A stretch of 35,558 bases of DNA, from NCBI GenBank assembly GCA_913020475.1, contig CAJVZM010000006.1:1-35558 (forward strand). Reading direction: 5' to 3'. The stretch is from an uncultured Flavobacteriaceae bacterium (GTDB lineage Bacteria; Bacteroidota; Bacteroidia; Flavobacteriales; Flavobacteriaceae). Positions 264 to 5,571 of the stretch are shown here, one piece after another; the first letter of the stretch is position 1; the number at the start of each line of letters is the position of its first letter. The position numbers and the translations under genes are program-made. The notes under the pieces were generated by a model, which worked only from the letters and a program-made list of their open reading frames with translations, did no database searches and was not told the DNA's origin.

Positions 264-614
264 GTGGAAAAAATCAAATTTAAACTTAGGGAATTTGCAA
301 AAGAAAGGGACTGGGATCAGTTTCACAGTCCAAAAAACCTAAGTATGGCATTGTCAAGTGAAGTAGGAGAACTTTTAGATTTATTACAGTGGAAATCTGA
401 AAAAAATAGTGAAGTTGATAAATTATCAGAAAAGGAATTAGATCACATTAGAGAGGAACTTGCTGATATATTTCTATATCTAATAAGAATTGCAGATAAA
501 CTTGATGTAAACCTTATTGAAGTTGCAGAGAAAAAGATAATCAAAAATGGAATTAAATATCCTGTAAAAATTTCAAAAGGAAACTCTAAGAAATATAATA
601 GAAGAGATGAGTAG
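264..614 (+). CDS. MazG-like nucleotide pyrophosphohydrolase (RS21-C6/dCTPase-like), GTG start
   Basis: 116 aa; FAKERDWDQFHSPKNLSMALSSEVGELLDLLQW...EELADIFLYLIRIADKLDVNL matches the all-alpha NTP pyrophosphatase pattern (EVGEL...EELAD). Confidence 0.88.
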   Translation: MEKIKFKLREFAKERDWDQFHSPKNLSMALSSEVGELLDLLQWKSEKNSEVDKLSEKELDHIREELADIFLYLIRIADKLDVNLIEVAEKKIIKNGIKYPVKISKGNSKKYNRRDE

Positions 615-1557
615 AATTATACTACAACCATCAGGGAATAAGGATGCAAGAGAACATTATGATGATACAATTCTAAATCCAGTTGGTGTAAATTCTATTT
701 CTAATTTTTTAAGTGATAAGGAGAAAAACATAATATCAAAAATTTATCCAAATAATAAACTTTTCATTTGGGGTGTTACTCCAGGTGGAAATAATATATC
801 TAAGTGGAATAAAATAAATCAGGGTGACGTCACATTATTTTCAAAAGATAAAAGAATTTATTCGTCAGGAGTAACAACATATAAATTCCAAAATAAAGAT
901 CTTGCACTTTTTTTATGGGATAAAAACTCAAAAAATCAAACATGGGAATATATATATCTTCTAGATGAAATTAAAACTCATAATATTCCATACGTAGATT
1001 TCAATAGATGTATTGGATATAAAGAAAATTATGTAATCCAAGGATTTAATGTTTTAGATAAAGAAAAAAGTGAAAAAGTTCTAAATAGATTTAACCTCTT
1101 TAGTGATACATACATTGAGGAGATAGATGTATCTTACTTTAATAAAATTTCTTTAGACTTAGATATAACAGAACAGTCTTACACTGGTTTAAGAAGACTT
1201 GAGCAAGGATTTTTAAGAAAAAATTTATTTAAAAATCATACTTTATTTAGTTGTTGCTGTTGTAAAAAAGAATATCCTGTTTCATTTTTAGTTGCTGCTC
1301 ACATCAAAAAAAGATCACATTGTAATAATAAAGAAAAATTGGATGAAAACATTGTGATACCACTCTGTAAATTTGGATGTGATGAACTATATGAAAAAGG
1401 TGTTTTAGTTGTTCAAAATGGTGAATTTACCTCGTCAAGGAAAAATGAAAATGAGAATATCAAATTATATATAGATTCAATTAAAGATAAAAGATGTAAT
1501 TATTACGATACAAATACATCCGAATATTTCGGTTGGCATTATGATTTTTACAATTAA
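607..1557 (+). CDS. HNH endonuclease-domain protein with a putative PUA/EVE-like N-terminal domain; possible modification-dependent restriction nuclease
   Basis: C-terminal CCCCKKEYPVSFLVAAHIKKRSHCNNKEKLDENIVIPLCKFGCDELYEKGVLVV is HNH-like. The N-terminal LFIWGVTPG..ISKWNKINQGDVTLFSKDKRIYSSGVTTYKF...ALFLWD...WEYIYLLDEI resembles PUA-like modified-base readers. Overlaps the upstream ORF by 8 nt. Confidence 0.75.
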   Translation: MSRIILQPSGNKDAREHYDDTILNPVGVNSISNFLSDKEKNIISKIYPNNKLFIWGVTPGGNNISKWNKINQGDVTLFSKDKRIYSSGVTTYKFQNKDLALFLWDKNSKNQTWEYIYLLDEIKTHNIPYVDFNRCIGYKENYVIQGFNVLDKEKSEKVLNRFNLFSDTYIEEIDVSYFNKISLDLDITEQSYTGLRRLEQGFLRKNLFKNHTLFSCCCCKKEYPVSFLVAAHIKKRSHCNNKEKLDENIVIPLCKFGCDELYEKGVLVVQNGEFTSSRKNENENIKLYIDSIKDKRCNYYDTNTSEYFGWHYDFYN

Positions 1558-1650
1558 TGTCTACTTTGAAAAAGAATATAGTTTTAGGTAGAAATTTTTT
1601 CTTCGTATTTTAAAATAAGAAAACCCAACAGGATGTTGAGATTGATTTTG

Positions 1651-1725
1651 TGGGCGCGAAGGGATTCGAACCCCTGACCCCTTGGGTGTAAACCAAGTGC
1701 TCTGAACCAACTGAGCTACGCGCCC
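1651..1725 (-). tRNA. tRNA-Val (anticodon TAC)
   Basis: Reverse complement GGGCGCGTAGCTCAGTTGGTTCAGAGCACTTGGTTTACACCCAAGGGGTCAGGGGTTCGAATCCCTTCGCGCCCA folds as a cloverleaf; anticodon loop TTTACAC. Confidence 0.95.
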
Positions 1726-1917
1726 TAATTTTTAATTATAATTCATTAAAACAATAGAAAAAAATTTATTTAACACTTCGAAAAATTTAATTAAATATTA
1801 TTTCAAAGCGACTTTTGAATCGGCTAATATAACATTATTCATTTACAACAAAAATAGTTTTTCATAGCATGTGTCGTTAATTTTTAACAGCTAATTTATT
1901 CATGTAAAAATCAGCAC

Positions 1918-3513
1918 TTAGTTAAAACTTAATTTGGCATTATTTTTTTTAGGATCAAAAAAATTAGTGTCTATTTCCTCAATTTTTTTTCCTTCAATAA
2001 AAACATTTTTTAAATGAACGCTCAAATCTTTCTTTTTGGTCTCGGAGTAGTACCTAAAGAAAGCCAACTTGTTGGGAAAGGCCTCTTCAAAATTACAATC
2101 CTCAATAGTGATGTTTTGGATTTTACCTAAAGAAGAAGTGTACCTATTTCTTTTGGTAATATAAAAGTTGATTGCTGTTTGCTTTCGATCTGGGTGACAA
2201 TGATCAGCGTATATATTTTTAAACAGCACTTCTTTAACCGATGCTCCATCCCTTACGTTGATTCCCATCACTCGGTCAGATTCGATAATGTCATTATTCT
2301 CAAAAACAATATTTTGCATGAGCTCACAATAGGTCTCTGTTCCAATTTTTAAAGCTGATTTTTTAGTTAAAAACACATTATTGCGAATGGTAATTCTCTC
2401 TGCATTGGGAATCATTTCTTGATTCTCACCCCATCCAGTACATTTTATTGCAACAGTATCATCTCCTGCCCAACCAAACGAGTTTTCAATCAATATATCA
2501 CTTGAGCTGTCTGGATCCCATCCGTCCAGACTACCTAGGTATTTACTTTCAGCGGGATTGTTCATGAGTTTACAATATCGAAAGCTAATGTGCTCTGAGT
2601 TGAGAATATGGGTATTCCAACGGCCAGCGTCCTTCAATAAAATTCCTTCTATTTGAACATTTCTTGAACGGTAAATCAGCAACAACCTCATACCTCCAAT
2701 CTTTAAGGACTGATCAGGGTGAGACAGAGCATTAATTTGAGTTCCGTTCCCATCAAGTGTTCCTAAACCTGAAATGTGGAGGTTTTGAACATCTTTTATA
2801 AGAATAAAATGATTGATTTTTGTTTTATCATCGGATATATAACTGCTCAGCGAATGATCATCTGCTATAATTCGTGCATTTTTATTGAGGTGGATTCGAC
2901 TATTGCTTCTAAACTCAAGTTTATAGGACTTATATTTTCCGGGAGGAAAATAGAGTACATTTTCAGTTCCAGAAATATCATCTAATGCCCTTTGAATTTT
3001 TGAGGTTTCATTCTTTTGACCGCTGTTGTCCACATCATAGAAATCCACTATGTTGATCCTTTTCTCGGGAATAACCTCGGGGGCTTCAAACAATAAAACC
3101 AAACGTTTTGTAAAATCTTGATTTTGCTTCAAACGAATTACGACATAACCCAATCGATCTATTATAAATGAAAGTTGATTTCCGGATTTCTCGCCCTTTA
3201 TTTTATATCGCTTTGGCGAGATGGACCATTCAGAATGATTAAAATTAAGTTCAGTAGACTGTAACTTAATACCAATAGGCTTACCTGTGTAGGTAATACG
3301 AGCAAATTTATAACTAGATAGACCGTGAATGGACGGAACATCGTTTTGTTCAAAAACCTCAACAGGTTTATCATCAGCATAAACCTCAAAAGTCTTGGCA
3401 TTAGAATGAAAAGACAATGAATAAATAAAAATCAAAAGTAAAAATCGCAATCCAAAAAATTTTGTGGAAATATAGTAAACTATTTCAAATCCACTTCTCT
3501 TAAAAATCGTCAC
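1918..3513 (-). CDS. Secreted right-handed parallel beta-helix glycosidase, GH28-like
   Basis: 531 aa with N-terminal hydrophobic signal; NIVDFYDVDNSGQKNETSKIQRALDDI, YFPPGKY and DGWDPDSSSDILIENSFGWAGDDTVAIKC are typical of GH28-like folds. Confidence 0.75.
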   Translation of the reverse strand: MTIFKRSGFEIVYYISTKFFGLRFLLLIFIYSLSFHSNAKTFEVYADDKPVEVFEQNDVPSIHGLSSYKFARITYTGKPIGIKLQSTELNFNHSEWSISPKRYKIKGEKSGNQLSFIIDRLGYVVIRLKQNQDFTKRLVLLFEAPEVIPEKRINIVDFYDVDNSGQKNETSKIQRALDDISGTENVLYFPPGKYKSYKLEFRSNSRIHLNKNARIIADDHSLSSYISDDKTKINHFILIKDVQNLHISGLGTLDGNGTQINALSHPDQSLKIGGMRLLLIYRSRNVQIEGILLKDAGRWNTHILNSEHISFRYCKLMNNPAESKYLGSLDGWDPDSSSDILIENSFGWAGDDTVAIKCTGWGENQEMIPNAERITIRNNVFLTKKSALKIGTETYCELMQNIVFENNDIIESDRVMGINVRDGASVKEVLFKNIYADHCHPDRKQTAINFYITKRNRYTSSLGKIQNITIEDCNFEEAFPNKLAFFRYYSETKKKDLSVHLKNVFIEGKKIEEIDTNFFDPKKNNAKLSFN

Positions 3514-3533
3514 AAGAAAACATTTATCGAATT

Positions 3534-4748
3534 TTATAATATCTCTGCCACCACAAAAGTACTTCCCCCTATAAAGATAAAATCATCATCATGGGCTTTT
3601 CTTTTAGCGGCCAAAAAAGCAGCTTTAACCGTTGGAAAAATTTTGTAAGAAATATCTAAATCTTGGGTGATCCTTTTCAAATCATATGTGGCCAAAGCTC
3701 TAGGGATTTGAGGAGCAGAAAGGTAAAATTCAGAATCAGGGGGGAAAAGCCTGATGATTTCATCCACCGCTTTGTCCTTTACAAAGCCCAATACTAAATG
3801 AAGTTGGCGATAGGAGTGCGATTCGATCTGGGGAATAATATATTGTAGTCCCTCTAGGTTGTGAGCTACATCAGCTACAATCATTGGCACTTCGTTCATA
3901 ACTTGCCACCTTCCCTGAATCCCAGTATTGGCCACCACATTCATTAAACCATTCTCTAATTTGTCGGGATGGAGTTCAAAACCCTTTAAATGTTGGAGCC
4001 CAACAACGGCAGTCTTAATATTCTGTCGCTGATAAGTCCCTTTTAAGTCGGATTCGTATTCTATGGATTTCATTTGATCGGCAAAGATGATTTCAGCTTT
4101 CAACTGGCGGGCTTTCTCTTTGAAAACAGCTTGGGTTTCCACTTGGGTCAAACCAACAATCACTGGAATATTAGGCTTGATGATCCCTGCTTTTTCTCGG
4201 GCAATTTCAGCCAGACTATCTCCCAAAAATTGGGTGTGATCCATTCCTATGTTAGTAATTATACAAAACTCTGGTTGGATCAGATTGGTTCCGTCCAACC
4301 GTCCTCCCATGCCTACTTCAATGACCGCTATATCCACATCCTTTTTTGAAAAATAAGAGAATGCCAAGCCCACTGTCATCTCAAAAAAAGAGAGGGAGTG
4401 AGACTCAAAATAAGTGCGGTGCTTTTCAACAAAATCCACGACAAATGCTTTATCAATGGGCTGACCATTAATCTTGATTCTCTCCCTAAAATCTTTTAGA
4501 TGGGGAGAAGTGTACAATCCAACCTGAAGTCCATGGTGTTGTAGAACTGATGCCATCATATGAGCAGTCGATCCTTTTCCATTAGTTCCGGCCACATGGA
4601 TGGTTTTAATTTGGTCTTGGGGTTGATTGAGGTAGTCGCAAAAGTCCTCTATACGTGACAAATCAGGCCGATAGGCTTGGGCTCCTTTTTTTTGATACAT
4701 TGGAAGTTGGGAAAACATCCAAGCCAAAATGGATTCGTAATTTTCCAA
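3534..4748 (-). CDS. folC: Bifunctional dihydrofolate synthase/folylpolyglutamate synthase
   Basis: IKTIHVAGTNGKGSTAHMMASVLQ, YTSPHLKDFRERIKING and IAREKAGIIKPNIPVI are FolC signatures. Confidence 0.95.
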   Translation of the reverse strand: MENYESILAWMFSQLPMYQKKGAQAYRPDLSRIEDFCDYLNQPQDQIKTIHVAGTNGKGSTAHMMASVLQHHGLQVGLYTSPHLKDFRERIKINGQPIDKAFVVDFVEKHRTYFESHSLSFFEMTVGLAFSYFSKKDVDIAVIEVGMGGRLDGTNLIQPEFCIITNIGMDHTQFLGDSLAEIAREKAGIIKPNIPVIVGLTQVETQAVFKEKARQLKAEIIFADQMKSIEYESDLKGTYQRQNIKTAVVGLQHLKGFELHPDKLENGLMNVVANTGIQGRWQVMNEVPMIVADVAHNLEGLQYIIPQIESHSYRQLHLVLGFVKDKAVDEIIRLFPPDSEFYLSAPQIPRALATYDLKRITQDLDISYKIFPTVKAAFLAAKRKAHDDDFIFIGGSTFVVAEIL

Positions 4749-4749
4749 T

Positions 4750-5571
4750 CTATTTTCCCAATTTGAACTGAATCACAACAAAACCGATCTGTTGGGCAGG
4801 TGCTTTGGGATCGGGAAACCATTTGTGCAGTAGAGCGGTTTCTCTAGCGGGTTTAAGTAGGCAGGGATGTGTATTAGTCGATCCCTTGACACCTGGCTCG
4901 GCCTTAACCACATCACCTTGACGGTTAACGGTTATTCTGACCACCACCACTCCATCTTGGTTACACTGTTGGGTCACTTTTCCACGAGACTCCAAGCGGC
5001 GACCATTCAATCCAAATCCTTTGCCCATTCCTCCTGGACCATCAAAATTAAAATAGGTATTCGAATAGGGATTGCCTTCAATTTTACCTTTGTCTCCCGT
5101 AACTTGGTCATTACCCTCTCCCTGATGGCTTGCTTTTTCGGTTAACTTTTTTTGATTGACCAATTTGGACAAAATATTTTTGGTCGCCTGATCTACTTTT
5201 AGCTTAGGTTGCTCCACGTTTTTAGTAACTTCTTTTACAGGGGGAATTTGTTTTTTTTTGATTTTATCTGGAACAGCGACATCACTGCTCTCTTGGGTCG
5301 ACACTTGGGGTTGGGCTACCCTATTGTGTGTTGCTTTTGAGGCCGCTTTTTTTGGAGTCGGTTTTGGAGTGGTTTTAGCTGCAACAGGTTTTTGAGGTTG
5401 TGTCTTTCCCATACCCTGTGTGGTGTTTCCAAAATTTACTTCCATTCCAAAACTTATCGGAGGATCGTAATACTTCAAACCCAACAAAAAAAATAAAAGA
5501 ACCAATAAAGCGGCAATCAGAGTAGTGATGGCTGCCGATTTTTTTTGATGTGGTGTTTCGAAATATTTCAT
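4750..5571 (-). CDS. TonB-family energy transducer
   Basis: Single N-terminal TM helix, Pro/Lys-rich linker, C-terminal CNQDGVVVVRITVNRQGDVVKAEPGVKGS...; directly downstream of exbD. Confidence 0.87.
   Translation of the reverse strand: MKYFETPHQKKSAAITTLIAALLVLLFFLLGLKYYDPPISFGMEVNFGNTTQGMGKTQPQKPVAAKTTPKPTPKKAASKATHNRVAQPQVSTQESSDVAVPDKIKKKQIPPVKEVTKNVEQPKLKVDQATKNILSKLVNQKKLTEKASHQGEGNDQVTGDKGKIEGNPYSNTYFNFDGPGGMGKGFGLNGRRLESRGKVTQQCNQDGVVVVRITVNRQGDVVKAEPGVKGSTNTHPCLLKPARETALLHKWFPDPKAPAQQIGFVVIQFKLGK

Follow-up and report, generated by a model that had tools for sequence, protein, structure and literature searches.

Overlapping genes for a MazG-like pyrophosphohydrolase and a putative modification-dependent HNH nuclease in a Flavobacteriaceae bacterium

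Two overlapping genes at one end of a 35,558-nucleotide stretch of DNA from an uncultured Flavobacteriaceae bacterium (contig CAJVZM010000006.1; the whole stretch is hereafter called the window) were found to encode a small MazG-like protein, which from its sequence probably destroys DNA building blocks, and a larger protein, which from its modelled structure probably cuts chemically modified DNA, such as that of phages. This pair recurs in four bacterial phyla, in prophages and on plasmids, and may thus represent a phage defence of two parts that has been little described. The interpretation preferred here, to which an even chance was assigned, is that the genes form a mobile type IV (i.e., modification-dependent) restriction module in which MazG removes modified dNTPs. 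A candidate two-gene defence module had been proposed from the nucleotide sequence; although its function is still a predicted one, the proposal was supported by the fold of the reader domain, by recurrence and by defence context.

The gene pair and its genomic setting

Both reading frames of the original prediction were present, as was the overlap of 8 nt between them, which is likely to reflect translational coupling (Table 1). The neighbouring tRNA-Val gene was also located, on the opposite strand. The pair had been described as very AT-rich and unlike the genes that follow, and base composition bore this out: G+C was 0.252 for positions 1-1620 (MazG gene, 0.291; nuclease gene, 0.258), whereas the 24 other coding sequences in the window averaged 0.392 (sd = 0.029, minimum = 0.333). 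An earlier hand count of 9 G or C in the line 1441-1500 was correct.

Table 1. Features of the gene pair and adjacent DNA (window coordinates)
Feature	Position	Strand	Basis
MazG-like (DCTPP1/RS21-C6 type) nucleoside triphosphate pyrophosphohydrolase, 116 aa, GTG start	264..614	+	Pfam, PDB matches
First metal motif of MazG, ExxE (E33, E36)	360..371	+	invariant in 30/30 partner MazGs
Second metal motif of MazG, ExxD (E65, D68)	456..467	+	invariant in 30/30 partner MazGs
Overlap of MazG and nuclease reading frames, 8 nt	607..614	+	
Modification-reader/HNH nuclease, 316 aa, ATG start	607..1557	+	PHROG 14240, AlphaFold, Foldseek
N-terminal PUA-superfamily (EVE/YTH-like) reader, residues 1-165	607..1101	+	model, Foldseek, profile match
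Inter-domain helix, residues 189-208	1171..1230	+	secondary structure of model; profile alignment with 6yex
HNH core	1252..1395	+	sequence alignment, profile versus VcaM4I
Left limit of congener homology, at 3' end of tRNA-Val	1621..1650	.	blastn, four congeners
tRNA-Val, anticodon tac	1650..1725	-	same tRNA in congeners

Comparison with four congeners by blastn showed that homology to the window started at 1621, 1637, 1649 and 1650 respectively; to the left of these positions there was no trace of the pair where congener sequence exists, and the interval is a probable island boundary. The MazG gene was not found (at E values up to 1e-10) in 21 other genomes of the genus, many of them incomplete. 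Judged from these comparisons, the pair seems to belong to an island that was acquired recently beside a tRNA gene. Position 1 of the window is the end of the contig, in a metagenome-assembled genome (MAG) that is about 80% complete, and the view is limited to the tRNA side of the presumed island. A repeat search for an attachment-site duplication returned A+T-rich chance repeats only; a classic duplication was not demonstrable because the contig begins at this point.

No methyltransferase gene adjoins the pair, which is in keeping with a type IV enzyme of the EVE-HNH kind, for which no cognate DNA methyltransferase is expected. The host MAG, at about 80% completeness, gave no match to a C5-cytosine methyltransferase, while a fragment of a D12-type adenine methyltransferase was present elsewhere in the genome. 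Two further loci of the host were observed: an MrcB_N domain protein (L253, contig C3:44756-45217, 8.9e-9), which is likely to be a second type IV specificity domain, and another, distant MazG (L089, contig C75:1339-1560, 2.7e-9), probably a housekeeping copy.

The defence context that had been proposed was supported in two ways, since the window pair, which was absent from congeners, occupies A+T-rich DNA at a tRNA 3' end, and relatives in prophages and on plasmids stand beside known defence genes or PADLOC candidates. In one prophage group (L047 and near copies, 1655-5531), the pair adjoins the PADLOC candidate PDC-M62A/B (3e-210, 5e-188), and a further small HNH protein beside the pair matches type IV models. 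PDC-M62A/B at L047 comprises a Septu-like ATPase and an HNH protein. The window genes themselves had no single named system in PADLOC-DB 2.0.0 that matched both; MazG had no match in this database and the nuclease only a weak match to a type II HNH model (6e-4).

Folds and active sites of the two proteins

The identification of the smaller protein as MazG-like was upheld by Pfam (MazG-like, 1.7e-11; MazG, 8e-6; both above curated cut-offs) and by solved structures, of which the nearest were RS21-C6/dCTP pyrophosphatase 1 (1e-23) and the pyrophosphatase 4qgp (5e-20). Alignment with DCTPP1/RS21-C6 (PDB 2a3q, 6sqw) was near end-to-end, covering residues 3-112 of 116; the window protein retains the metal ligands, with E33 and E36 aligned to E63 and E66 of mouse dCTP pyrophosphatase (offset 30), as well as W17, H21, W43, Y72, K91 and N95. 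Among 30 MazGs that partner reader-nucleases, 27 positions were at least 90% conserved, and besides both metal motifs, W17, H21, Q42, W43, Y72, K91, N95, Y99, K110 and Y111 were invariant. The protein therefore carries both the profile and the ExxE...ExxD motifs that define the MazG-like/dCTP pyrophosphatase family. It differs from DCTPP1/RS21-C6 in being bacterial, mobile and encoded in a nuclease operon, with a substrate that is predicted. Human DCTPP1 hydrolyses dCTP and its 5-methyl, 5-formyl and 5-halo derivatives, and loss of the enzyme renders cells hypersensitive to 5-methyl-deoxycytidine (PMC7162842); by analogy, the window MazG may act on dCTP or 5-modified dCTP.

The larger protein is a full-length member of PHROG 14240 (1e-62), a phage family without an assigned function. 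An AlphaFold model based on 26 sequences (pLDDT 88, pTM 0.60) was compared with known structures by Foldseek, which ranked VcaM4I (1.6e-11) above the Thermococcus gammatolerans McrB reader (9e-7), an EVE protein (2p5d, 9e-5) and YTH domains (3e-4). The whole-chain TM-score to VcaM4I was low (0.33) and the rmsd high, which suggests that two domains match but that their relative placement is different. The N-terminus had been called PUA/EVE-like at the level of motifs, and the PUA fold was confirmed by structure prediction and Foldseek. A profile of the reader alone matched the T. gammatolerans McrB reader in sequence (0.0016), to which it is also similar in fold (PDB 6p0f, 6p0g; TM 0.68 by target length). 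This McrB domain has been reported as a 6mA reader (PMC7897488, PMC12707154); unlike the window protein, it is joined to a GTPase, the partner of McrC, and not to an HNH domain. Pfam had no model for the reader and gave no plain EVE match for the window protein, while one archaeal relative matched Pfam EVE below the cut-off (0.0013); NCBIfam matched neither protein of the pair. Weak Pfam matches, among them ATG11, a C2H2 zinc finger and DUF2738, fell below the cut-off and were dismissed.

In a 12-member alignment of the reader, W55, G56, D74, A100, W104, W113, E114 and Y117 were invariant. EVE, YTH and McrB-reader structures all match this domain, and the invariant W55, W104, W113 and Y117 are candidate pocket residues; the pocket that receives the flipped base in VcaM4I consists of P24, W82 and Y130 (PMC7897488). 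The reader is also fused to Mrr_cat in haloarchaea and, in an archaeal provirus, to a McrB-like AAA ATPase beside a PD-(D/E)XK protein; type IV specificity domains are typically found with partners of this sort.

The C-terminal HNH call was marginal by Pfam, but firm by a whole-family profile against the nuclease half of VcaM4I (8e-10), a match that is independent of structure, and firm by structure also. Its catalytic positions, H232 (1300-1302), N248 (1348-1350), D259 (1381-1383) and E263 (1393-1395), correspond to the catalytic H224, N241, D250 and D254 of VcaM4I (PMC7897488). C216, C219, C254 and C258 are probable zinc ligands. Between the domains lies a helix, with R197, E199 and Q200 invariant, at the position where VcaM4I has its auto-inhibitory linker helix. 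The protein thus has the order of reader, linker helix and HNH seen in VcaM4I, an EVE-HNH type IV enzyme (PDB 6yex, PMC7897488), with catalytic H, N and D aligned, and the composition that characterizes EVE-HNH type IV enzymes in general, i.e., a PUA-superfamily reader at the N-terminus and an HNH domain with intact catalytic residues at the C-terminus. It differs from VcaM4I in having only 16% identity (Foldseek alignment), E in place of D254 and the four probable zinc cysteines, while MazG is absent from the VcaM4I paper (PMC7897488). The nuclease can thus be placed in a known kind of enzyme, of which it forms a new branch.

Recurrence of the pair and exchange of partners

Genome-neighbourhood survey, which the original prediction had made a test of the pairing, recovered the pair in Bacteroidota, Bacillota, Pseudomonadota and Actinomycetota, as well as in prophages and on plasmids. 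When the nuclease served as query, MazG was directly upstream in all eight chromosomal relatives that were found (from Flavobacteriaceae, Thioglobus, Terribacillus, Neobacillus and Paenibacillus), and so the arrangement is not due to chance; the same order was found on Nocardiopsis and Streptomyces plasmids and on many viral or prophage contigs. The spacing between MazG and nuclease in relatives ranged from -5 to +50 nt. Both genes of this conserved, mobile operon have been under purifying selection (dN/dS 0.04-0.25, where computable), with a frameshift or stop in one gene at a few loci (L008, L009, L014, L015). Full-length members are rare and patchy, occurring in 3 of 396 Bacteroidota genomes, including that of the window.

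When pairing was defined as a MazG gene no more than 150 nt from the reader gene and in the same orientation, it was observed (mostly at <20 nt) at 33 of 52 reader loci, non-redundant after clustering at 80% identity, and at none of 13 loci possessing the nuclease domain only, which were unclustered save for one near-identical pair counted once (Fisher p = 2e-5). Where the reader was fused to another HNH domain (such as L073, L076, L078, L084, L091 and L092), MazG was present in 10 of 20 clusters. Since these loci carry MazG and nuclease-only loci do not, the association tracks the reader rather than the nuclease. Of the 52 reader loci, 19 had no MazG, among them each of the five from archaea; MazG is therefore not obligatory.

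Several loci departed from the usual arrangement. On a Nocardiopsis plasmid (L013, 7523-7878), a frame-broken MazG lies downstream, not upstream, of the nuclease. At L032 (5473-5970), the position of MazG is occupied by a DUF1643 protein (1.6e-33), which ends ~3 nt before the nuclease ORF and is possibly a functional substitute. At L055, L056 and L069 (5151-5636), an extra, stand-alone reader domain replaces MazG just 5' of the reader-nuclease.

A second survey was seeded with MazG rather than the nuclease. The same MazG subfamily was found to adjoin a second reader-HNH class (EVE2-HNH), including one instance in a Vibrio phage, MrcB_N-HNH proteins at two independent loci (Pfam 1e-50), and a PUA-like/NOV_C protein. 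The N-terminus of EVE2-HNH matches EVE proteins (E = 9e-5), the model being of modest confidence (pLDDT 68). The pairing of MazG with both EVE2-HNH and MrcB_N-HNH makes the reading of modified DNA the common trait of its partners. In the MazG phylogeny, partner types were interleaved within supported clades, with the nuclease type of the window alternating with the alternative, and well-supported branches required at least 3-4 changes of partner; moreover, MazGs that are 95% identical accompany reader-nucleases of different nuclease type. It follows that MazG is the more constant element and that the reader-nuclease is exchanged. A model of fitted pairs, in which each MazG is tuned to one reader, was opposed by these near-identical MazGs and by the weak correlation of distance matrices (Mantel r = 0.29, with 3 of 5000 permutations as high).

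The subfamily also occurs beside SLFN-type helicase/GIY-YIG-like proteins and phage methyltransferases. Its association with readers is therefore strong but not exclusive, and its role may extend beyond modified dCTP. At L246 and L247, which have the gene order of the window (minus strand, 1-1848), MazG is situated directly 5' of a protein with a GIY-YIG-like start and an SLFN/DUF2075-type helicase; at L162 it occurs with an SLFN-g3 helicase (Pfam 1e-90). A Priestia aryabhattai plasmid (L227, NZ_CP083270.1, 1388-5294) carries, in order, mutT, MrcB_N-HNH, MazG (with a 4-nt overlap between the last two) and a DUF2075 helicase, such that two nucleotide hydrolases flank one type IV-like nuclease.

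No description of the pair was found in the open-licence literature, and in the same literature, as searched, there was likewise no account of a MazG dedicated to several classes of reader. The nearest remarks there are the listing of MazG as a predicted, unvalidated defence domain (PMC13092281) and the occurrence of MutT homologues beside SauUSI homologues (PMC7641849, Fig. 9). The latter provides a precedent for pairing a modification-dependent nuclease with a nucleotide pyrophosphohydrolase; however, both protein families are unrelated to those of the window, and the passage on this pairing proposes no mechanism.

Proposed function and alternative explanations

We infer the following division of labour. 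The EVE/YTH-like domain would flip out and recognize a modified base of incoming DNA, for which a 5-modified cytosine is the likeliest candidate, and the HNH domain would thereby be freed to cut. MazG would hydrolyse the matching modified dNTPs to monophosphates, 5-modified dCTP being the best guess, and so keep modified bases out of host DNA, such that the nuclease spares the host, while simultaneously starving phages that make modified dNTPs. Cleavage of modified incoming DNA by the reader and HNH domains was judged probable, from the fold, active site, fusions and context. If that half is correct, the dual role of MazG in protecting the host and starving phages is somewhat more likely than not; depletion or policing of nucleotides, as originally suggested, is plausible.

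A 5-modified cytosine was preferred because 5mC/5hmC is recognized by VcaM4I (PMC7897488) and by McrB readers of the E. coli type, because the MazG groups with the dCTP pyrophosphatases, and because the host has an adenine methyltransferase fragment and no match to a C5-cytosine methyltransferase. The reader fold is nonetheless intermediate between EVE (5mC/5hmC) and YTH (6mA, in T. gammatolerans McrB). On a Peribacillus simplex plasmid (L135, pSHB26), a relative that combines this reader with another HNH nuclease has as neighbours a shortened MazG and two genes for DNA cytosine methyltransferases. The two C5-cytosine methyltransferases argue against plain 5mC as the target of that relative and, together with the YTH-like features, they keep 6mA and other bases as candidates.

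Depletion of dNTPs is an established principle of defence, and MazG might itself be the antiviral effector, depleting dCTP or another dNTP during infection while the nuclease acts independently or as a trigger. The occurrence of the same MazG beside effectors other than modification readers favours such a role, as does a 2026 machine-learning study that lists MazG as a predicted, unvalidated defence domain (PMC13092281). It was considered unlikely, however, given a bare, single-domain MazG with no visible sensor or switch, and given that partner MazGs track the reader domain and not the nuclease. Direct regulation of the nuclease was thought more doubtful still, whether MazG were to act like an antitoxin or to hydrolyse a nucleotide signal that the nuclease needs; while the genes overlap with the small protein first, and VcaM4I has an HNH domain that is toxic when free (PMC7897488), the association of near-identical MazGs with different reader-nucleases disfavours a fitted protein interface, MazG is missing from many relatives, and its catalytic residues are invariant.

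It is slightly less probable again that MazG is a hitch-hiking metabolic gene of phages or mobile elements, unrelated to the nuclease. Phages commonly carry MazG genes, and members of the subfamily adjoin phage methyltransferases in some cases, but the tight, same-strand spacing (usually <20 nt) in four phyla, the survival of adjacency through partner exchange and the contrast between reader and nuclease-only loci all count against coincidence. Finally, the presence of YTH domains, which are usually m6A readers in RNA, among the structural matches raises modified RNA as the target, rather than DNA; this was held to be very improbable, because VcaM4I and the McrB reader, which head the structural matches, are enzymes of DNA, because DNA is also what such HNH domains cleave, and because the reader is fused elsewhere to Mrr_cat and McrB-type partners.

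The preferred reading, a restriction module assisted by a pool-cleaning MazG, can be extended to a class of two-tier immunity, a generalization rated somewhat below even odds. One MazG-like subfamily would then be the constant, exchangeable partner of many unrelated readers of modified DNA (the two EVE classes, MrcB_N and others, with several HNH types), and modified bases would be policed both before incorporation, in the dNTP pool by MazG, and afterwards, in DNA by the nuclease. Type IV enzymes have usually been presented as lone proteins or McrBC-like complexes whose reading is confined to DNA. Retention of a conserved pool enzyme beside them while the nuclease is swapped would explain how such nucleases are carried safely, despite modified nucleotides entering the cell's own pool, and MazG domains, so far predicted defence domains, would gain a concrete, testable role.
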